DNA from: Longimicrobiales bacterium
GTDB lineage: Bacteria; Gemmatimonadota; Gemmatimonadetes; Longimicrobiales; Gaopeijiaceae
DNA length: 64,000 bases
NCBI GenBank assembly: GCA_951813395.1
Contig: OX638356.1
Span: 2,988,501 to 3,052,500 of the forward strand
Direction: 5' to 3'
How positions within the stretch are numbered: the stretch's first letter is position 1; every line of letters starts with the position of its first letter. This document shows, piece by piece, positions 46,934-59,856 of the stretch. The position numbers and the translations under genes are program-made. The notes beneath the pieces were generated by a model, which searched no databases, was not told the origin of the DNA, and saw nothing but the letters and a program-made list of their open reading frames with translations.

Positions 46934-46962
46934 TGGCCTTGACAGGGTATGGTCGGCTCCGC

Positions 46963-46987
46963 ACTTTGTTCGGCAACCGAACAAAGT
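46963..46987 (+). promoter_or_regulatory. 25-bp palindromic operator, plus operon of the glucan locus
   Basis: Arms ACTTTGTTCGG and CCGAACAAAGT form a perfect 11-bp inverted repeat around CAA. The same palindrome occurs at 59885-59909 before the convergent operon. In the direction of transcription, the match extends to both flanks (TCCGC before, AG after), differing only at one spacer base. It lies 72 bases before the first gene. The likely ligand is the ROK-family regulator encoded at 50664; a LacI-type protein elsewhere is the alternative. Confidence 0.85.
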
Positions 46988-47059
46988 AGGAATCGGCTGC
47001 CCGTCGCGTCGCAGTTGCTGGACCGGCCGCGGGACATCCGATCAACCTGGTGCCACGCG

Positions 47060-48991
47060 ATGACAGCCTCCCGGTGTGCCCGAATCGCCGCGCTCGCGGC
47101 GCTCCCGCTCGCGCTTGCCTGTGAGCGGGACCTGACCGATCTGGACCCGGCGAGCTTCCCGCCCGAGGCAGCGGTCTTCATCGACGATTTCGGTCCGGGG
47201 GTGCAGTTCGGGGCCTACGGCGGATCCAAGATCGATGCGCTGGACATCGAGCACGACGACGTCTACGGGGGCACGGCGGCGCTCAAGTTCACGGTGCCGG
47301 CGCCGAACGATCCATCGGGCGGCTACGCGGGGGGCGCCTTCTATTCGCTCGCGCCCCGCGACCTGTCGGGATTCGACGCCCTCACCTTCTGGGCGCGCGC
47401 GACCACGGCCATAACGCTGGACCGGGTCGGGATCGGCGACGACAACACCGGCACCTCCCGCTTTCCGGCCACGGTCGACGGCCTGCCCCTGTCGACGCGC
47501 TGGACAAAGTACGCCGTGCCCATTCCGCTGCCCTCCATGCTGGCTCGGGAGCGCGGGCTTTTTCTGGTGGCGGACGGCTCCGAGCACGCGGTCGGCTACG
47601 ACATCCTGTTCGACGACGTGCAGTTCGAACGGCTCGGCACGATCATCAACCCGCGGCCCGCGATCGACTCGCGGACGGTGGGCGGCGAGGTCGGCGGCAG
47701 CCTGACGGTGCAGGGCACGCGGGTAACCTTCGACGTGAACGGCACCGACGTGACCGTGGGCGCCGCTCCCGGCTACTTCACCTTCATCTCGTCGGACGCC
47801 AACGTCGCCGAGGTCAGACCGGACGGGTCGATTGCCCTGGTGCGCTCCGGCACGGCCACGATCACGGCCTCGCTGGGATCGACCCCCGCCGCGGGTGCGG
47901 TCACGGTCAACGTCGAGACCCCGCCCGCGGACCCGGCTCCCGTGCCCACGGCGCCCGCCAGCGACGTGATCTCGCTCTTCAGCGACGCGTACAACGACGT
48001 CCCGGTGGACACCTGGTCGGCGGATTGGGATCTGGCCGACGTGGCGGATCTGCAAATCGCGGGGAACCCGGTCAAGAAGTACACCAACCTCGCCTACGCG
48101 GGCATCGAGTTCACCTCGTCGCTCATCAACGCCGAGTCGATGACCCACCTGCATGTCGACCTCTGGACCACCGACGCCGATGTCTTCCGCGTCAAGCTGG
48201 TGGACTTCGGCGCGAACGGCGTCTTCGGCGGGGGCGACGACAGCGAGCACGAGGTTACCCTGGGTCCGTCGTCGGACCCGCCGCTCAGGCCCGGGCAGTG
48301 GAACACCCTGGACATCCCCCTTTTCGCCTTTGGCGGACTGACGGGCCGCGCCCATCTCGCGCAACTGATCATCTCGGGATCGAGCCCGACCGTCTATCTG
48401 GACAACATCTACTTCCTTCGGACCGAGACCTCCGTTCCGACCGGCCCGTCGATGCCCCCTCCCACGCCGGACGACGCGGCGGACCAGGTGATCTCGCTCT
48501 TCAGCGACGCCTACGACGACGTGCCCGTGGACACCTGGTCGGCGGAGTGGGACGTGGCCGATCTGGCGGACCTGGAGATCGCCGGCGACGCCGTGAAGAG
48601 GTACGTCAACCTGGCGTACGCGGGAATCGAATTCACGTCGGCGCCCATCGACGCGACGGCGATGACCCACTTCAGGATGGACATCTGGACGCCCGACGAG
48701 ACTGCGGCGGCAGCATTCAAGGTGAAGCTGGTCGACTTCGGCGCGAACGGCGTGTACGACGGGGGCGGCGACGACACGGAGCACGAAGTCACGCTCACCG
48801 CCGCCCAGGGGCTGGCCACCGGCGAGTGGGTGCGGCTGGACATGCCTCTGGCGGACTTTACGGGTCTCGCCGCGAGGCGGAATCTGGCACAGTTGATCAT
48901 CTCGGGAGATCCGAACACGGTTTACGTTGACAACGTCTATTTCCGGCGGGCGGCAACCGGGCCCAGCCACCCAACAGGAGAGAATCCATGA
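47060..48991 (+). CDS. Multi-module glucan-binding lipoprotein, first gene of the operon
   Basis: A 643-residue lipoprotein (lipobox LALAC) without a catalytic domain. Residues about 30-200 are a CBM11-like jelly roll (FIDDFGPGVQFGAYGG, LSGFDALTFWARATTAI, ILFDDVQFERLG). Residues about 205-290 are an Ig-like BIG2 type (DGSIALVRSGTATITAS). Two copies of a 150-residue module follow (about 302-454 and 476-630): DVISLFSDAYNDVPVDTW, MTHLHVDLWTTD, FRVKLVDFGANGV, YLDNIYF. That module accompanies bacterial laminarinases. Probably a surface glycan-binding protein standing in for SusD. Its stop overlaps the next start (ATGA). Confidence 0.82.
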   Translation: MTASRCARIAALAALPLALACERDLTDLDPASFPPEAAVFIDDFGPGVQFGAYGGSKIDALDIEHDDVYGGTAALKFTVPAPNDPSGGYAGGAFYSLAPRDLSGFDALTFWARATTAITLDRVGIGDDNTGTSRFPATVDGLPLSTRWTKYAVPIPLPSMLARERGLFLVADGSEHAVGYDILFDDVQFERLGTIINPRPAIDSRTVGGEVGGSLTVQGTRVTFDVNGTDVTVGAAPGYFTFISSDANVAEVRPDGSIALVRSGTATITASLGSTPAAGAVTVNVETPPADPAPVPTAPASDVISLFSDAYNDVPVDTWSADWDLADVADLQIAGNPVKKYTNLAYAGIEFTSSLINAESMTHLHVDLWTTDADVFRVKLVDFGANGVFGGGDDSEHEVTLGPSSDPPLRPGQWNTLDIPLFAFGGLTGRAHLAQLIISGSSPTVYLDNIYFLRTETSVPTGPSMPPPTPDDAADQVISLFSDAYDDVPVDTWSAEWDVADLADLEIAGDAVKRYVNLAYAGIEFTSAPIDATAMTHFRMDIWTPDETAAAAFKVKLVDFGANGVYDGGGDDTEHEVTLTAAQGLATGEWVRLDMPLADFTGLAARRNLAQLIISGDPNTVYVDNVYFRRAATGPSHPTGENP

Positions 48992-50667
48992 AGTCGCTCA
49001 ACCATCGCCTGTACATGGCGTCGGCATTGCTCGTTGCGTTCACAACGCTCTCGTGCGGTGACGACGACACCACCGCTCCACCTCCGGACCCCGACCCAGT
49101 TGCCACGACGGTCCAGGTGTCGCCCGCCACGGCCTCGCTCTCGTCGCTGGGCGAAACCGCCCAGTTGACCGCCTCGGTGCTCGACCAGAACGGGAACGCC
49201 ATGGCGGGCGCCGCGGTCGCCTGGTCGTCGAGCGCCGACGCCGTGGCCACGGTCAGCACGAACGGGCTGGTCACCGCGGCGGGCAACGGCTCGGCGACGA
49301 TCACCGCGACCTCGGGCGCCGCGAGCGGCACGGCTTCCGTGATGGTGGCGCAGGTTGCGGCCGCCGTGACCGTCATGCCGAGCGAAGTCACCCTGACGAT
49401 GCTGGGCGAGACGGCGCAGTTGACGGCCGAAGTGACCGACGCGAACGGAAACGTGGCCGCGGACGCCGCGGTGGCGTGGGCATCGGCGGACGAGGGCGTG
49501 GCCACGGTCGACGCGGACGGAATGGTCGCGGCGGTGGCCAACGGTGAGACGATGGTGACGGCCACGTCAGGCGACGCGAGCGCCGGCGCGACCGTGACGG
49601 TCATGGCCCAACCCATGCCCGCCGAGGGTCCGCCGAGTCCCACCCACGCGGCCGAGGACGTGATGTCGCTCTTCAGCGACGACTACGACGACGCCATGGT
49701 GGACACCTGGTCGGCCGAGTGGGATGACGCCGACGTCGAGGATGTGGACATCGCGGGGAACGCGGCGAAGAGGTACACGAACCTCGGCTTCGCGGGGATC
49801 GAGTTCATTTCTGCGCCCCTCGACGCGACCGGCATGACCCACTTCCGCATGGACATCTGGACACCCGACGAGACGGTGAATGCGGCGTTCAAGATCAAGC
49901 TGGTGGACTTCGGCCCCAACGGAGTCTGGGAAGGACCCGGCGTCGGTGACGACACCGAACACGAGATCACGCTTGACGCCGCCACCGGCCTCGCCACCGG
50001 CCAGTGGCTACAGCTCGACCTGCCCCTGGCCGACTTCACCGGCCTCACCACACGCGGCCACATGGCCCAGCTCATCATCTCGGGCGACCCCAACACGGTC
50101 TACGTGGACAACGTCTACTTCAGGACCGGCGATGCGCCGCCCCCGCCGGCCGAGCCCGCGGAGCCCGCGCCGACCCCGACGCACGTCGCGGACAGCGTGA
50201 TCTCGTTCTTCAGCGACGCCTACGACGACGTCATGGTGGACCGCTGGTCGACGGATTGGGATCAGGCCAACGTCGAGGACGTGGAGATCGCGGGCGACGC
50301 CGTGAAGAAGTACACCGGTCTCGTCTTCGCCGGCATCGAGTTTACGTCGCAGACGGTCGACGCCTCCGAGATGACCCACTTCCGCATGGACATCTGGACA
50401 CCCGACGAGACGGTGAATGCGGCGTTCAAGATCAAGCTGGTGGACTTCGGCCCCAACGGAGTCTGGGAAGGACCCGGGGTCGGTGACGACACCGAACACG
50501 AGATCACGCTTGACGCCGCCACCGGCCTCGCCACCGGCCAGTGGCTACAGCTCGACCTGCCCCTGGCCGACTTCACCGGCCTCACCACACGCGGCCACAT
50601 GGCCCAGCTCATTATCTCGGGCGACCCCAACACCGTGTTCGTCGACAACGTGTACCTGCGCCGGTGA
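48988..50667 (+). CDS. BIG2 and twin glucan-binding-module lipoprotein
   Basis: A 559-residue lipoprotein (TTLSC, Cys about 23) made of two BIG2 Ig-like domains (about 38-205: ATVSTNGLVTAAGNGSATIT, ATVDADGMVAAVANGETMVT) and two laminarinase-associated modules (about 218-375 and 397-559). The two modules share 263 bases at 99% identity. The Ig domains act as spacers that lift the binding modules off the membrane. No catalytic residues seen. Overlaps its neighbours at both ends (ATGA, GTGA), so it is tightly coupled in the operon. Confidence 0.82.
   Translation: MKSLNHRLYMASALLVAFTTLSCGDDDTTAPPPDPDPVATTVQVSPATASLSSLGETAQLTASVLDQNGNAMAGAAVAWSSSADAVATVSTNGLVTAAGNGSATITATSGAASGTASVMVAQVAAAVTVMPSEVTLTMLGETAQLTAEVTDANGNVAADAAVAWASADEGVATVDADGMVAAVANGETMVTATSGDASAGATVTVMAQPMPAEGPPSPTHAAEDVMSLFSDDYDDAMVDTWSAEWDDADVEDVDIAGNAAKRYTNLGFAGIEFISAPLDATGMTHFRMDIWTPDETVNAAFKIKLVDFGPNGVWEGPGVGDDTEHEITLDAATGLATGQWLQLDLPLADFTGLTTRGHMAQLIISGDPNTVYVDNVYFRTGDAPPPPAEPAEPAPTPTHVADSVISFFSDAYDDVMVDRWSTDWDQANVEDVEIAGDAVKKYTGLVFAGIEFTSQTVDASEMTHFRMDIWTPDETVNAAFKIKLVDFGPNGVWEGPGVGDDTEHEITLDAATGLATGQWLQLDLPLADFTGLTTRGHMAQLIISGDPNTVFVDNVYLRR
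49834..50096 (+). repeat. 263-bp repeat, copy 1 (module 1 of the lipoprotein)
   Basis: Starts atgacccacttccgcatgga and ends at ccccaacac. It matches 50371-50633 at 261 of 263 positions; the two differences are C/G in ggacccgg-gtcgg and C/T in ctcat-atc. The remainder of the two modules is much less alike. Confidence 0.9.
50371..50633 (+). repeat. 263-bp repeat, copy 2 (module 2 of the lipoprotein)
   Basis: The partner of 49834-50096 at an offset of 537 bases, covering the C-terminal two thirds of the second module. The sharp loss of identity upstream of both copies points to recent gene conversion rather than duplication of the full module. Confidence 0.9.
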
Positions 50668-51878
50668 TCCGTGGCGGCGCCGTCGTGCCGGACGACGAGC
50701 TGACCCGGACGGTCCTCGACCTTGTGTGGAGGCGCCGGGAGGTGTCCCGGGCCGAGATGGCCCGGGACACCGGGCGGTCCCGCTCGACCATCTCCGACGT
50801 GGTGGGACGGCTCCTGGACACCGGCCTGGTGGCGGAGATGGGGGCCGGGAGAAGCAGGGGCGGACGGCGCCCGATTCTGGTGGGATTCCGGGACCAGGCC
50901 GCGGTGATCCTGGGGATTGACCTCGGGGCGACCCATGTTTCGGTGATTCTCACGAACCTCCGCGGACGCACGCTGGCATGGCGGGAGTGTTCCCATCCCG
51001 TGCAAACCGATCCGGAGGGCGCTGAAGCGCTCATCAAGGCGCTCGGCGACGCCTGTCTGTGCGAGTGGGGCGGCGACCGGTCGCGCCTCATGGGGATCGG
51101 GGTCGCGGTCCCCAGCCCGGTCGACCCGGACTCGCCGGACCGCGTGCTCGAACGGGTGCTGCCCGCGTGGCGCGGCCACAGCGTCATCGAAAGGCTTAAC
51201 GCCGCCTTCGGCGTCCCGGTCTTCGTGGACAACGACGCCAACCTGGGGGCCGTGGCCGAGCGATGGTGGGGCGAAGCGGTCGGTATCGACGACTTCGTGT
51301 ACCTGAAGGTCGCCACCGGAGTCGGCGCGGGCATCATGATCGGAGGGCGGATCCATCGCGGCGCCACCGGGGTCGCGGGCGAGATCGGTCATGTGGCCAT
51401 CGACCCCGGCGGCCCCCAGTGCGTATGCGGCAACCGCGGCTGTCTGGCCACCTTCGTGGGCACGCGCCAGCTTGTGGACCGCGCCGGAGACCTGCTCGCA
51501 TGCTTCCCGGACAGCGTCCTCGCCGGAAGCGAACCCGACATTCGGGCGATCGAGGACGCGGCCCTGTGCGACGACCCCCTGGCTCTCCAGGTCGTCCGCG
51601 AAGCCGCGATGCGCCTCGGCATCGTCGTCGCCGGCGTGCTCAACCTCCTCAACCCCGGCTCGGTGATCCTCGGCGGCGGCCTCGCGCGGGCCGGCGAGCG
51701 TCTGATCGGACCGCTGCGCGAAGCCGTCGCCACGCGCACGCTCGTGGCCTCCGCAGCCGCCTCGGACATCCGCGCCAGCGAACTCGGCGACCGCGCCGTG
51801 GCGTTGGGCGCCGCCACGCACGTGCTGGTCGCGGGCCTGGCCAACCCCCGACTCTTTCCCGGCGTGGCGCCCGCATGA
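50664..51878 (+). CDS. ROK-family transcriptional regulator
   Basis: A 404-residue NagC/XylR-type regulator. An N-terminal winged helix (about 12-60: VSRAEMARDTGRSRSTISDV, VGRLLDTGLVAEMG) precedes a sugar-kinase-like domain: ILGIDLGATHVSVIL (phosphate loop), VDNDANLGAVAERWWG and the zinc motif IGHVAIDPG..CVCGNRGC. The usual Glu after the last Cys is changed (GCLAT). GTG 50664 overlaps the upstream stop. It is expected to bind a glucose-type inducer and to control both operons through the shared 25-bp palindrome. Confidence 0.9.
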   Translation: MIRGGAVVPDDELTRTVLDLVWRRREVSRAEMARDTGRSRSTISDVVGRLLDTGLVAEMGAGRSRGGRRPILVGFRDQAAVILGIDLGATHVSVILTNLRGRTLAWRECSHPVQTDPEGAEALIKALGDACLCEWGGDRSRLMGIGVAVPSPVDPDSPDRVLERVLPAWRGHSVIERLNAAFGVPVFVDNDANLGAVAERWWGEAVGIDDFVYLKVATGVGAGIMIGGRIHRGATGVAGEIGHVAIDPGGPQCVCGNRGCLATFVGTRQLVDRAGDLLACFPDSVLAGSEPDIRAIEDAALCDDPLALQVVREAAMRLGIVVAGVLNLLNPGSVILGGGLARAGERLIGPLREAVATRTLVASAAASDIRASELGDRAVALGAATHVLVAGLANPRLFPGVAPA

Positions 51879-52681
51879 CCTCCCGGCCGCGCGCGCTCCC
51901 TGCCCTTGTGGCAACCCTCGCCCTCTTCTCCTGCTCGAGTTTCGGCTCCGACGCCGACCCCACCTGGACGCTGGTCTGGAGCGACGAGTTCGAAGGCCCC
52001 GCCGGGCAGCTCCCCGATCCGGCCAACTGGAGCTTCGACATCGGCACCGACTGGGGCAACGCCCAGCTCGAGTTCGACACCGACCGCCCCGAGAACGTCT
52101 CGCTCGACGGCAACGGCAACCTCGCCATCACCGCCCGCCGCGAGTCCTACCGGGGAAGCGCCTACACCTCGGGCCGCATCAAGACGCAGGGGCTCTTCGA
52201 GCAGGCGTACGGGCGCTTCGAGGCCCGCATCCGGCTCCCCGGCGGCCAGGGCATCTGGCCCGCATTCTGGATGCTGGGGGGCAACTTCGACTCGGTGGGC
52301 TGGCCGCAGTGCGGCGAGATCGACATCATGGAATTCCGGGGCCAGGAGCCGAGCGTCGTGCACGGCACAGTGCACGGACCCGGCTATTCGGGCGGCGGCG
52401 GCATCTCGGGACGCCATGCGCTCCAGAACGGCCGTTTCGACACCGATTTCCACGTCTTTGCCGTTGAATGGACCGAAGCGGGCATCGCCTGGTTCGTGGA
52501 CGGGGAGCTGTATCACCGGGTGAACCGCGACGATCCGAGCGGCGAATGGGTCTTCGACCATCCCTTCTTCATCCTGCTCAACGTCGCCGTGGGCGGCCGC
52601 TTCCTGGGCCCTCCCGACGCCTCGACGCAGTTCCCCCTGTCCATGCTCGTCGACTGGGTTCGCGTCCACCGTGCCGATTGA
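51875..52681 (+). CDS. GH16 endo-beta-1,3-glucanase (laminarinase-type) lipoprotein
   Basis: A 268-residue GH16 hydrolase. The catalytic signature GEIDIMEF places the nucleophile at Glu148, Asp150 and the acid/base Glu153. Upstream are WTLVWSDEFEG and the family stretch RFEARIRLPGGQGIWPAFWM. The signal peptide ends in a lipobox (LFSC), so it is likely on the cell surface. The extra Met in the active-site motif (E-I-D-I-M-E) is the laminarinase form. No binding module is attached; those are separate genes in the same operon. ATG overlaps the regulator stop. Confidence 0.93.
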   Translation: MTSRPRALPALVATLALFSCSSFGSDADPTWTLVWSDEFEGPAGQLPDPANWSFDIGTDWGNAQLEFDTDRPENVSLDGNGNLAITARRESYRGSAYTSGRIKTQGLFEQAYGRFEARIRLPGGQGIWPAFWMLGGNFDSVGWPQCGEIDIMEFRGQEPSVVHGTVHGPGYSGGGGISGRHALQNGRFDTDFHVFAVEWTEAGIAWFVDGELYHRVNRDDPSGEWVFDHPFFILLNVAVGGRFLGPPDASTQFPLSMLVDWVRVHRAD

Positions 52682-52684
52682 CCC

Positions 52685-54751
52685 GTGAGCCGCCGAACCG
52701 CCTCCGCAGACCGCATCTCGTTCCCGCACAAGGTCGTCTACGGAATCGGCGGTTTCGTGAACAACCTCCTGGCGCAGGGCATCGGCAACCTCATGCCCGT
52801 GCTCACGCTGGCACTGGGCATGGATTTTCGGGTCGTCGGCCTGCTGGGCGGCCTTCCACGCCTCTTCGACGCGCTCACGGACCCGCTCGTGGGCTTCGTC
52901 TCGGACCGCACCCGCTCGCGCTGGGGCCGCCGCCGGCCGTTCCTGTTCGTGGGCGCAATCTCGGCGGGAATCGTCTTCGCGCTGCTCTGGCAAATGCCCG
53001 CACCCACCCAGTTCCGGCTCAAGCTGGTGGACAACGGGCCCGACGGCGTGCGAGCAGGGTCCATGGAGGGCGTGGGCGACTTCCTGAGGGGCATCGTCAC
53101 CGTAGAGACGGACGATGATTCAGAGGGCGAAGTCATCATCCGGCCACCCACGCTGGCAACGGGCCGCTGGGTTGGCATCGACGTGCCGCTTGCGGAATTC
53201 GACGGGCTCGGCGCCCGGGGAAACCTGTCGCAGATCCTGCTCTCCGGCGACCTGACCGATTTCCACGTCGACAACGTTCATCTGTATCGCGCGGCCGATG
53301 CGGCGGCGGCCGACTCGTCCGCCCCGGCCGCGAGCGCCGCACAGGCCTCGTTGGAAATCGCGGTTCCGGACACCCCCGCCCCCACCCCCACGGCGCCGCC
53401 CGAGGCCGTGATCTCGATCTTCAGCGGCGCCTACGACAACATCCCCGTGCTGTACTGGACCACCGGCCCGGACCAGGCCCGGGTCGCGGACGCGCAAGCG
53501 GACGGAGACGACGTCAAGCACTACACCGAAGTGCGCCTCGCCACGATCGACTTCGGCGACAACCCCGTCGACGCCAGCGAGATGACCCACCTCCATCTGG
53601 ACATCTGGACCCCACAGACCATCGGCGACGGATGGAGCCAGCGTGCCTACTTCTGGTACTTCCTGATCGGGTCGCTGGTGTTCTTCCTGGCGTACACCGT
53701 GTTCGCGACGCCCTGGGTGGCGCTCGGCTACGAGCTTACTCCGGACTACAACGAGCGCACCCGTCTGATGGGCGTGCAGAACTTCGTCTCCAACACCGTG
53801 TTCGTGATCGGCCCGTGGTTCCTGGTGATCGTCACCAACGCGGCCTGGTTCCGAAACCAGATGGACGGGGCCCGGTTCGTGGCGCTGGCGATCTGCGCGG
53901 CGACCATCGTGCTCGGCGTGCTGCCCGCCGTCCTGCTCCGCGAGCGCATGTTCGGGGGCGGCCGGGCCGCGGACGCCCACGCCAAGGGCCCGGGATTCGC
54001 GGAAAGCACCATGGAATTCCTCCGCGGTCTCTGGCGGACGGTCAGAACCGGCCCCTTCCTGATGCTGTGCATCGCGACCTTCCTGATGTTCAACAGCTTC
54101 ATCATGATCTCCCAGTTCCAGTTCTGGGTGTTCGCGTTCTACGTCGCGGGCGGCAACGTGGCGGCGGGGGCCGGTCTGGCGGGCGTCGTCGGCACGTTGG
54201 GGACCGTGACCGGATTCCTGGTGATCGCTTTCGTTACCTGGCTGGGCACAAGGATCGGAAAGAGGAACGCCTTCTTCGTCTCGACGGGCATCTCCATGCT
54301 CGGCTACGTGCTGAAGTGGTTCTGCTACACGCCGGAATACCCCATGCTGGCACTCCTCCCCGCCCCGTTCCTGGCCTTCGGGCTGGGCGGCCTGTTCACG
54401 CTCATGGGATCGATGATCGCGGACGTGGTGGACATGGACGAGCTCGTCACCGGCGAGCGCCGCGAGGGCATGTTCGGATCGGTCTTCTGGTGGATGGTGA
54501 AGCTGGGCCAGAGCGGCGCCATCGTGCTGGGCGGCTTCCTGCTGTACTCGACCGGGCTCGATCCCGCTCTCGGCGCCAACCAGCCCGAGGGAACGATCCT
54601 CTGGCTCCGCTTCTACGACGCCATCCTGCCGCTCCTCGCCTCCGCAATTGCGATCTACGCGGTCTACCGGTACCCGATCACCGAACAAAGCGCCCTGGAG
54701 GTCCGAACCGAGCTGGAACGGCGCCGGGGGACGGCGTCGAGGAGCCGTTGA
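52685..54751 (+). CDS. GPH-family sugar:cation symporter with an inserted, permuted binding module
   Basis: A 688-residue protein; normal GPH (MelB-like) symporters have about 450-480. Residues 1-104 hold TM1-TM3 (VVYGIGGFVNNLLAQGIGN, GFVSDRTRSRWGRRRPFLF) and 313-688 hold TM4-TM12 (YFWYFLIGSLVFFLAYTVF, MIADVVDMDELVTGERREGM). Between them about 205 residues are foreign. Residues 109-201 are the back half of the locus's binding module (FRLKLVDNGPDGV, HVDNVHLYRA), then comes an Ala/Pro/Thr-rich linker, and 239-309 are its front half (AVISIFSGAYDNIPV, MTHLHLDIWTP). The MFS loop motif after TM2 puts the insert in the periplasm. GTG start, three bases after the GH16 stop. Confidence 0.83.
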   Translation: MSRRTASADRISFPHKVVYGIGGFVNNLLAQGIGNLMPVLTLALGMDFRVVGLLGGLPRLFDALTDPLVGFVSDRTRSRWGRRRPFLFVGAISAGIVFALLWQMPAPTQFRLKLVDNGPDGVRAGSMEGVGDFLRGIVTVETDDDSEGEVIIRPPTLATGRWVGIDVPLAEFDGLGARGNLSQILLSGDLTDFHVDNVHLYRAADAAAADSSAPAASAAQASLEIAVPDTPAPTPTAPPEAVISIFSGAYDNIPVLYWTTGPDQARVADAQADGDDVKHYTEVRLATIDFGDNPVDASEMTHLHLDIWTPQTIGDGWSQRAYFWYFLIGSLVFFLAYTVFATPWVALGYELTPDYNERTRLMGVQNFVSNTVFVIGPWFLVIVTNAAWFRNQMDGARFVALAICAATIVLGVLPAVLLRERMFGGGRAADAHAKGPGFAESTMEFLRGLWRTVRTGPFLMLCIATFLMFNSFIMISQFQFWVFAFYVAGGNVAAGAGLAGVVGTLGTVTGFLVIAFVTWLGTRIGKRNAFFVSTGISMLGYVLKWFCYTPEYPMLALLPAPFLAFGLGGLFTLMGSMIADVVDMDELVTGERREGMFGSVFWWMVKLGQSGAIVLGGFLLYSTGLDPALGANQPEGTILWLRFYDAILPLLASAIAIYAVYRYPITEQSALEVRTELERRRGTASRSR

Positions 54752-54760
54752 CGACCTACA

Positions 54761-56643
<1,883 letters not shown>

Positions 56644-56647
<4 letters not shown>

Positions 56648-59600
56648 ATCCCGATATGCAGGTAGGTACGGATTTCCCACTCGCGACCGTACTCGCTGCC
56701 GAGCGCGCTGTTGCACTCCATTGCACCGAATTGGTCGGGCGTTCGCGTGGGGCAGTAGCGGGGCGAGTATTCGTCCAGGGTTCGCATTGCGGCACGCAGG
56801 CCGACGCGGGTCTGGGGCAGGTCGAACCACTCCGGCGAACCGAGGGCGTAGGAGATGTCGCCCATGAGTTGGAGCGGGAAGGTCAGGTTGAAGTCGCGGT
56901 GGTAGTCGTAGGGCCCCCAGTCGTTGAGGCGTACCATGGACTGGAACTTCAAGGGGCCGCCGATGATGCGGAGGTCCAGGCCCGCCCGGTTGATCGTGCG
57001 TTCATCTTCGCCGTTGGGCTCGCCCGTGCCTGCGTAGAGGTTGGCGATGACCCCGGCCGCCGGCGACCGCTTGGCGACGAGCCGCGCCCTGGCCTCCCAT
57101 AGATCGCGCGCGGGCGGTGCCCCGGGGAACGGGAAGGTTGAGCGTCCGTCGGCAAAGATTCCGATGGCTGCGTCCTGCGTGGTTTGGAAGGATTGGTAGA
57201 CAAAGCCGAGCGAGGCGGCGAAGCGGGCATCTTCGCGCATGTCGCTGTCCCAGTTGTACATCCAGGTAGCAGGGGTGGGGTCGTAGGTGAAGAGGAGCTC
57301 GGCTGCGCGTGTCTCGCGGTTGCCGCGGACCGAAAAGGGATCGTCCAGGATGTTGCGCGGACGCCCGGGAGCGGGCGCGTCGCGCGGCACGGGACCCACC
57401 AGAGGCTTGCGCCAGAGCACGTTGGGCGCGATCTGCCAGTTGCCGAGGATCAGCGCGAACCCCGTGATCACGTTGCGCTGGTTGCCGTGGCCGGTGTCCT
57501 TCAGCGTCCAGCCGGTGAAGGTCTGCGTCTCGTCGGAGCCGCCGTCGGCCACGAGTCCCATGGCCGCCGCCTGCAGGTACCATAGCAGGCGTCCTTGGGT
57601 GAGGGTGAGCTTGGCCCTGGCTCCGAAGGCGTCGGACGGCCGGACCTCGTCCTGCAACACCCGGTAGTCGCCGGGCGCTCCGTCGACGATCTGGAAAGGC
57701 TGGCCCTCCTTGGTGCTCCCCGACCATATGCCGCCGACATCCACGACCATGTTGCCGCGGGTGACCGTTGTGTGGAGGGTGGCCTTGCGAGTGGGAGGAA
57801 GCGGAATCGCGAACGAGGTGCTCGCCCGGCCCGCCTCGGCCAGGTCCTCCTGGTATATGACCGTCGTCTCGAACGGGCCGATGCTCCGCCGATACTTGGC
57901 GAGGGCCGCCGGATTCGCGCCCCACCACAGCTCGGGCCCGATCGCGACCTTCAACCCGGTCAGCATTCGCTTCCCGGCGATCTCCATCCCGATGGGGGCC
58001 GCCCCGTTGTAGATGTCGAGGTTGGGCCCGTAGTTGGCCTCGCGATAGAGCCCGAAGAAGTCGCCCTCGTAGCCCCAGTGGTAGTGGCCGCTGCGGTAGA
58101 AGCCGTCGAGCCGGAACCAGCGGTCGTCCCACGAGATGCCGGCGCTGTACACCTTGAGTCGCTCGATGTCGTTGAGCGGCAGCGTCTCGCCGTCGTCCGA
58201 CCTGATGGTGTGCGGGCGTCCCCGGTTCTCGTAGAAGATCTCGTCGATGGGGTTGCGGGGGACATCGCCGAGAATGTTAAACGAGACGTTTGTGAGGATG
58301 GCCTGCGTGGGCCGCGCGGTCAGGTCCGCGTAGAACGACTGCATCTTGTCGAAGCCGCGGTGGCTGGGGTAGGCGCTGTTGCGGTCGGGCGGCTCCTCTG
58401 GCGTACTCACCAGACTGCCGCCGGTGCTGTAGGTCTCCAGTTCGGCCCGCAGACCGCTGAGATGCACCCGGTCGCGGGCGGTTGCGAGCAGCGCGGCACG
58501 GTCCCCGAGAGCCTGAAGCCCGACTGCGGCTGGCCGGATCGAGGCGAAATGCTCCCGGATCGCCGCCAGATCCGTTCCCGGTGCGTACGGATCGAGGGTG
58601 TACGCCTCGCGTAGCGCGTAGTACGCGGCCCTGGGGTACAAATCGTAGAGTCTGTCGTGGCTGGCAGGACCCTTGGCGACGATCCCCCACCACTCCTCGT
58701 TCATGTTGTTGTCGCCCTCGACGAAGTCCTCGACATAGCCCCCGTTCGCCCAGGAGGCGTTGGTGTCCTGAATGTCGAGCCGGTCCTCCTGGCCGAACTT
58801 CCACCACCCGTCCGACCACTGGAAGGTGAGGCCGCCGATCGAGTTGCCCACGAGGCCCTTGCCCGCCGACTGCTCGTAGATCTCGCGCCACTGCCCCACG
58901 AGGTACCGGGCCTGGGCGACCTGATCCTCGTGCATGTTCTTCGCATTCCACGCGTCGGCGCCGAACTCGGTGAACATTACGGGGCGGCCGAGCTTCTCCT
59001 GCACCTCCTCGAAGAGGTCTCTGAACGAGATGCCCCGGTAGACGTTGGTGCCGAAGACGTCAAGGTCGGGGATCTCCTCGGCGATGATGTCGATGTACCC
59101 GAGATCGCCGTTGGCCATTGCGACCGGGCGCGTGGCGTCGATCTCCTTGATCCGTGCGGCCACGTCGCCGAAGAGCGAGTACATGTGTCGGGCGCGCACC
59201 GCGTCGGCCTCCTCGGTGGGCAAATCCTCGGTCTCGGCGGAACTCCACACGAGTCCGTAGTTGTTCTCGTTGCCGAGAAGCCACATGAGGATGCCCGGGG
59301 TGTCCTTGAAATCGTTCACCATCGTTTCGATCTCGGACATGACGACCGCGCGCGCCGCCGGGTCCGAATAGTCGGTGTTGGCGCTGAAGACGCCGTTCAC
59401 CGTGACCCCGTAGCGCGCCATCGCATGGTTCAGGATCGTGTAGATCCCGTAGCGCTCGTAGATGTGCCGCACCCACCTGGGCGTGATTCCGACGTAGGCG
59501 CGGATCGCGTTGCCGCCCATCGCCTTGAGGAGTGACATCTCGCGCTCGAGCGCCGCCTCGATTATGTGGTCGGGCTCGGTCCAGAAGCTGTAGTTGTAGG

Positions 59601-59856
59601 TCGTGCCTATGGGGAAGTAGTCCCAGTTGACCCCCAGCACCATTGTGTCCTCGCCGTCGATCGTGAGCCGCGTCCCGGAGTCGTCGCTCACGAGTTCGAT
59701 GACGGGCATGGGGGGGTCGGCGGCGTCCTGGGCGGCGGCGGGCGCGGCGGAAGCGAGCACCGACACCAGGGCAAGAGCCGATGTGACGGCGACCGGGACC
59801 GACACCCGCCGTCGCGCTGTGGCGGCTCCGCGAGTCTGATCGCGGATCGAACTCAT
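56644..59856 (-). CDS. GH2-like TIM-barrel glycosidase fused to an outer-membrane beta-barrel
   Basis: A 1070-residue exported protein (signal peptide ending APAAAQ). Residues about 50-450 are a GH2/GH-A-clan TIM barrel: candidate acid/base Glu197 in MWLLGNENNYG and nucleophile Glu297 in RPVMFTEFGADAW. A linker region (about 450-540) follows. Residues about 540-1070 alternate polar and hydrophobic residues in long strands (FQSMVRLNDWGPYDYHRDFN, RAAELLFTYDPTPATWMYNW, QIAPNVLWRKPLVGP), as in porin-like barrels. It ends IRTYLHIGM, lacking the usual terminal aromatic. The gene is led by the palindromic operator and is coupled to GH3. Confidence 0.75.

Follow-up and report, generated by a model that had tools for sequence, protein, structure and literature searches.

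We asked how the inner-membrane sugar symporter of a beta-glucan-use locus came to carry a domain whose two halves stand in reverse order, and what such a domain might do at the membrane. The window (the whole 64,000-nt stretch of DNA analysed) is part of a single 4.09-Mb contig. The gene in question (52685..54751, + strand) encodes a 688-aa MFS_2/GPH-like cation symporter, as judged from the ORF, Pfam MFS_2 and a match to MelB (PDB 4m64). Pfam MFS_2 (PF13347, gathering cut-off 27 bits) matched the protein with 186.1 bits in two stretches flanking an insert, and residues 11-102 aligned with MelB residues 3-95, up to helix III. The NCBIfam model TIGR00792 (gph, cut-off 231.35 bits) gave a full-length match of 149.2 bits with the insert in place, 169.8 bits with the flanks joined and 171.6 bits for the insert-less relative L064. 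Since all three scores fall short of the cut-off, whether the insert is present or not, we refer to the symporter as GPH-like. The protein shares the 12-TM-type core of GPH/MelB-type MFS_2 symporters, and the Asp pair of MelB helix II (DAxxDP) is kept in the alignment as D62 and D66; the residues aligned with MelB Asp19 and Asp124, which we take to be sugar-site residues, are not Asp. It differs from MelB-type symporters by an inserted domain of 209 aa.

Alignment with insert-less orthologues and MelB divides the gene into a transporter N-terminal part with TM1-TM3 (aa 1-105, 52685..52999), the insert (aa 106-314, 53000..53626) and, by Pfam and the orthologue alignment, a transporter remainder from TM4 to the C-terminus (aa 315-688, 53627..54748). 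An earlier note on this DNA had the symporter broken off at about residue 105 and resuming at 313, with 205 residues inserted; the interruption is real, and the orthologue alignment moved its limits to aa 106-314 and its length to 209 residues. Within the insert, half-module HMMs, alignment and a structure model place the module back half, beta5-beta9, first (aa 106-202, 53000..53290) and the front half, beta1-beta4, second (aa 241-314, 53405..53626). Between them a Pro/Ala/Thr linker (aa 203-240, 53291..53404) connects what would be the old C- and N-termini. Between beta5 and beta6 the back half has a long, weakly constrained loop (aa 122-143, 53048..53113), in which a short helix is predicted. 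This loop is specific to the inserts and is often amphipathic-looking, e.g., GLLESIGNSLKDIVTVE; the array units described below do not have such a loop.

An insert of this kind could be an assembly chimera or a misread ORF, a reading that we rejected and now regard as having a negligible chance of being right. The whole protein including the insert was matched by about 20 loci at 62-79% identity among 148 relatives, and a search of 395 genomes of the phylum returned the same carrier set plus one more genome (G314). The carriers are uncultured marine Gemmatimonadota of about 20 species, and all those named in GTDB genomes belong to this phylum (Candidatus Palauibacter and so-called Longimicrobiales or Gemmatimonadetes MAGs). 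Their assemblies are independent, come from many projects and assemblers, and several are single-contig, including the complete chromosomes OX639991.1 and OY282361.1; the same junctions, LLWQMP-AP(T/A)QFRLKLVD...WTPxxTx-EG(R/W)SQ, recur throughout. Among the best 80 relatives in GTDB genomes, about 60 others, spread over many phyla, are without the insert; the empty site, as seen in insert-less orthologues at the same syntenic locus, reads LLWQMP|EGRSESYYFWYF. The GTDB scan covered these best 80 relatives and two short peptide patterns, and carriers with a more distant transporter may therefore be missed. The insert-less orthologues keep the locus order of array, ROK, GH16 and symporter, with GH3 and GH2-like genes on the other strand. 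Of the outcomes that the earlier note had named as fatal to its proposal, misassembly and a lack of homologues with the same architecture were thus both looked for and neither was found; a third, halves that fail to pack, is taken up with the structure model below. We concluded that the architecture is real and conserved. The symporter had no strong match in eight sampled genomes of the window genus. Two insert-bearing symporter copies are present in each of SB0661_bin_2 (L042 and L046) and SB0672_bin_21 (L041 and L048), and the carrier copy L022/L055 is broken in two by a frameshift close to query residue 455, either a sequencing error or decay.

The relatives of the insert are encoded a few genes upstream on the same strand. 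Array protein A (46949..48991, +; ORF and half-module HMMs) has a lipobox-like N-terminus and two modules in canonical N-C order, unit 1 at 47966..48421 and unit 2 at 48488..48949. Array protein B (48988..50667, +; ORF, Pfam and half-module HMMs) has a lipobox-like N-terminus, Big_2 domains and two canonical modules, aligned at 49660..50127 and 50197..50664. Half-module HMMs matched in the order N-half then C-half in the array genes, and C-half then N-half in the window symporter and all carrier symporters. The canonical-module HMM found the native window insert in two out-of-order pieces of 51.4 and 74.2 bits; when the halves were reordered, it gave one full match over profile positions 1-155 with 140.5 bits, and shuffled inserts scored about 0 bits. 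The insert is therefore a member of the array-module family by sequence, with a strand order that is not the canonical N-C one. The circularly permuted order proposed in the earlier note is borne out by these two results, and the proposed cut at the WTP/FRLKLVD hairpin agrees with the comparison of insert and array modules. The proposal that the insert derives from the laminarinase-type binding module of the locus stood in part: the module type is indeed shared with the locus, but donor-type modules sit in the two array genes, and the GH16 enzyme shows GH16-type Pfam matches only.

No array unit in the comparison exceeds 51% identity to the window insert, as expected from the claim that this insert is well diverged from its neighbours; other inserts reach about 52-64%. 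Charged residues that are near-invariant in array modules persist in the inserts (K113, D116, E147, E149, K278 and D306, with Glu changed to Asp at 289), and some array-conserved positions are altered, e.g., the second W of the VDTWSAxW motif and the EFTS motif. Among Pfam glycan-binding domains, SGBP_B_XBD (PF18329, the xyloglucan-binding domain of surface glycan-binding protein B), a domain of lipoprotein-like glycan-use proteins, was weakly matched by 6 of the 56 array modules (E up to 1, best E 2.3e-5). Most array modules went unmatched, and the insert matched no Pfam glycan-binding domain, SGBP_B_XBD included; the organism and the likely glycan also differ. A PDB sequence search with the canonical-module profile gave nothing significant, the best hit being a kinase at E 0.072.

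The fold was examined with AlphaFold2. The model of canonical module A unit 2 (pLDDT 96.1, pTM 0.90) matched structures of CBM8, CBM11 and CBM30 at Z 12-13, and also CBM29 and the laminarin-binding CBM X584 (8qx6, Z 11.3), with an overall range of Z 11-13. As modelled, the canonical module is clearly a CBM11/CBM30-like sandwich, although it shares no significant sequence match with these PDB entries and the insert differs from them further in its permuted strand order. The 210-aa insert was predicted as one unit (pLDDT 85.6, pTM 0.82) from 60 native sequences. Some of these are array pieces that also run back half, linker, front half, so that the pairing information between the insert halves is partly mixed. 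Confidence exceeded 90 over most blocks of both halves and was low in the linker and the extra loop. All nine strands are present in the order 5-6-7-8-9-1-2-3-4 of the canonical module, and the two halves are predicted to close one beta-sandwich, the packing on which the earlier note had staked its proposal. A domain-swapped dimer, in which the insert halves pair with the halves of a second transporter molecule, would be compatible with such a monomer prediction; given the high confidence of the monomer model in both halves and a flexible linker of about 38 residues, ample for intramolecular closure, we consider it very improbable. The permuted insert loses the CBM matches in sequential alignment, and Foldseek found nothing for it in the PDB at E <=0.001, as is expected of a permutant. 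Its best structural match on a second look was an engineered circularly permuted beta-glucanase (1ajk, Z 6.8), a score too low for kinship.

How the permuted order arose can be read in part from the junctions. The array hairpin between WTP and FxxKLVD has 8 residues most commonly (62 of 108 parsed), and the hairpin residues left and right of the insert sum to 8 in all 20 parsable carriers; the linker end APTPT is common to insert and array linkers. The insert length is exactly one array period, with the opened beta4-beta5 hairpin fully accounted for, and from the hairpin sum and the shared linker end we concluded that one contiguous out-of-phase repeat period was captured. Excision of one unit as a DNA circle, the route suggested in the earlier note, is possible and not needed, because any copy of one out-of-phase repeat period yields the same product; the one-period length and the shared linker fit either a circle or a plain copy. 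A search for a particular source unit ended in rejection, since the nearest array units vary by carrier and none is prominent. In a maximum-likelihood tree of the transporter columns, with the insert columns left out, the 20 insert-bearing rows form one clade with SH-aLRT 100 and one change is needed (quick method, no bootstrap, midpoint root); a single gain is thus the simplest reading. The inserts likewise form one branch, with support 100, in a module tree made with FastTree after the insert halves had been put back in canonical order. In the history that we propose, one period of the neighbouring array, out of phase so that it runs from back half through linker to front half, would have entered the TM3-TM4 loop of the symporter in an ancestor of this Gemmatimonadota lineage and would have been retained as a folded, circularly permuted beta-sandwich of carbohydrate-binding type.

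Retention was assessed by median omega over carrier pairs with dS <1.5 (Nei-Gojobori). The insert core gave 0.230 and the transporter 0.233, the linker 0.44 and the insert-specific loop 0.58, values that carry no significance test because the pairs are not independent. Purifying selection acts on the insert core as it does on the transporter, and this together with the single clade upholds the claim that the insert is not a fresh copy error. In the nine-member clade around the window (window left out), constraint on the core is weaker than on the transporter (omega 0.243 vs. 0.137), and in the window genome itself the insert evolves about twice as fast (0.335 vs. 0.143). The window insert is the most diverged and fastest-evolving copy, with Y117N, Y123R and Y199H at positions where other carriers keep Tyr; it is still constrained. 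The faster evolution in the window lineage and the lack of a match to any known binding family would suit a passive or regulatory lid, i.e., a fold that is kept with neither ligand nor partner and that was fixed by drift or tunes gating. Yet the insert has been retained throughout the carrier clade, under purifying selection equal to that on the transporter across carriers, and we think such a lid improbable.

What the insert can reach depends on the side of the membrane that it faces. By the MelB alignment the insert follows TM3, and the TM2-TM3 loop is Arg-rich (RTRSRWGRRRP). In the MFS/MelB topology an Arg-rich TM2-TM3 loop is cytoplasmic and the TM3-TM4 loop periplasmic. The insert is therefore predicted to lie on the periplasmic side, where the earlier note had also put it. 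With the module opened at the beta4-beta5 hairpin, its new ends would lie next to each other on the short TM3-TM4 loop, and the end with the old N- and C-termini would face away from the membrane.

The other genes of the locus suggest a substrate. Downstream of the array genes lie a ROK-family regulator or kinase (50670..51878, +, start approximate; Pfam ROK) and a GH16 beta-glucanase (about 51875..52681, +; Pfam Glyco_hydro_16, start by inspection), followed by the symporter. Convergent with the symporter is a GH3 beta-glucosidase-type enzyme (54761..56830, - strand; Pfam GH3 N and C domains, synteny), and next to it a GH2-type TIM-barrel protein with a signal-peptide-like start (56644..59856, -; Pfam Glyco_hydro_2_C, synteny). 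The lipobox-like N-termini of the two array proteins and the GH16 enzyme read, by eye, LALAC, LTTLSC and LFSC. TonB-receptor barrels were matched 38 times in the source genome, as expected for a diderm; one match lies near the left end of the window (about 1536-2594), and the array-GH16-symporter stretch has none.

From the fold class, the locus content and the retained residues (K113, D116, E147, E149, D289, K278 and D306) we infer glycan capture by the insert. Beta-glucan, held by the array lipoproteins, would be cut by the GH16 lipoprotein, which would sit at the outer membrane or beyond it. The insert would act as a tethered receptor: by capturing beta-glucan oligosaccharides at the symporter's periplasmic mouth it would concentrate them locally, and the symporter would import them for cleavage by a cytosolic GH3. 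The insert is most likely a built-in circularly permuted glycan-binding domain at this mouth. We assign a probability of roughly 0.6 to the reading that one array period in shifted phase was inserted and kept as a permuted carbohydrate-binding-type domain, likely a tethered glycan receptor. For the fuller proposal, a secondary sugar transporter whose own receptor, a natural permuted CBM made from one out-of-phase unit of the neighbouring array, hands beta-glucan oligosaccharides to the symporter, we see about even odds.

The chief rival to glycan capture is protein docking, in which the permuted beta-sandwich would recruit a periplasmic glycosidase or the array lipoproteins. The analogy is with mammalian PepT1 and PepT2. 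These MFS transporters, too, have a beta-sandwich-type domain that folds on its own and is inserted at the outer face, between two TM helices; this large extracellular insert, made of two Ig-like folds in normal order, binds trypsin and has been proposed to recruit it, and bacterial homologues are without it (PMC4597091). Several export-signal-bearing proteins are encoded in the locus, and the insert has a long beta5-beta6 loop of its own; both points favour docking. That loop is weakly constrained, however (omega 0.58), and the insert keeps core residues common to the glycan-type arrays, so that docking appears unlikely to us.

If the insert does capture glycans, the glycan-binding domain would be part of the secondary transporter itself. 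This task is otherwise left to separate periplasmic binding proteins, as in ABC systems, or to surface glycan-binding proteins. We found no MFS transporter with an inserted or fused carbohydrate-binding domain in the library of open papers searched, which is weak evidence of absence. The architecture combines two known kinds, an inserted domain in an MFS transporter and a permuted repeat unit as a domain insertion, and records an uncommon evolutionary event with the source repeats and the empty site in view. To our knowledge, circular permutants rarely occur naturally inside host proteins. One such unit, the plant-specific insert, is hosted by aspartic proteases. Tandem repeats are a recognised route to permutation, and the saposin-swaposin pair is the nearest precedent, the plant-specific insert being a permuted unit thought to derive from a tandem-repeat family and lying inside another protein (PMC3320104). 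Unlike the symporter insert, which is a beta-sandwich within a transporter, it is a saposin unit made of helices and hosted by a soluble protease. Living genomes still show the source repeats, the empty site, the exact one-period length and the single-clade history, which opens the formation of a permuted domain insertion to stepwise study.

Two further observations concern the symporter and its locus in other lineages. In four of these (MAGs of GN15, Ignavibacteria and Bacteroidetes), a single ORF of 1113-1188 aa joins the locus's symporter, in its insert-less form, to the GH3 beta-glucosidase (L081:6170-9556, L084:9932-13306, L103:9959-13297 and L085:2-3565); the fusion would place the GH3 domain in the cytoplasm and would fit a direct coupling of import and cleavage. 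The symporters L039, L040 and L044, of Palauibacter type, from another family of the class, nest within the clade of the window genus and share its locus order, suggesting that the whole locus may have been transferred between Gemmatimonadota families.
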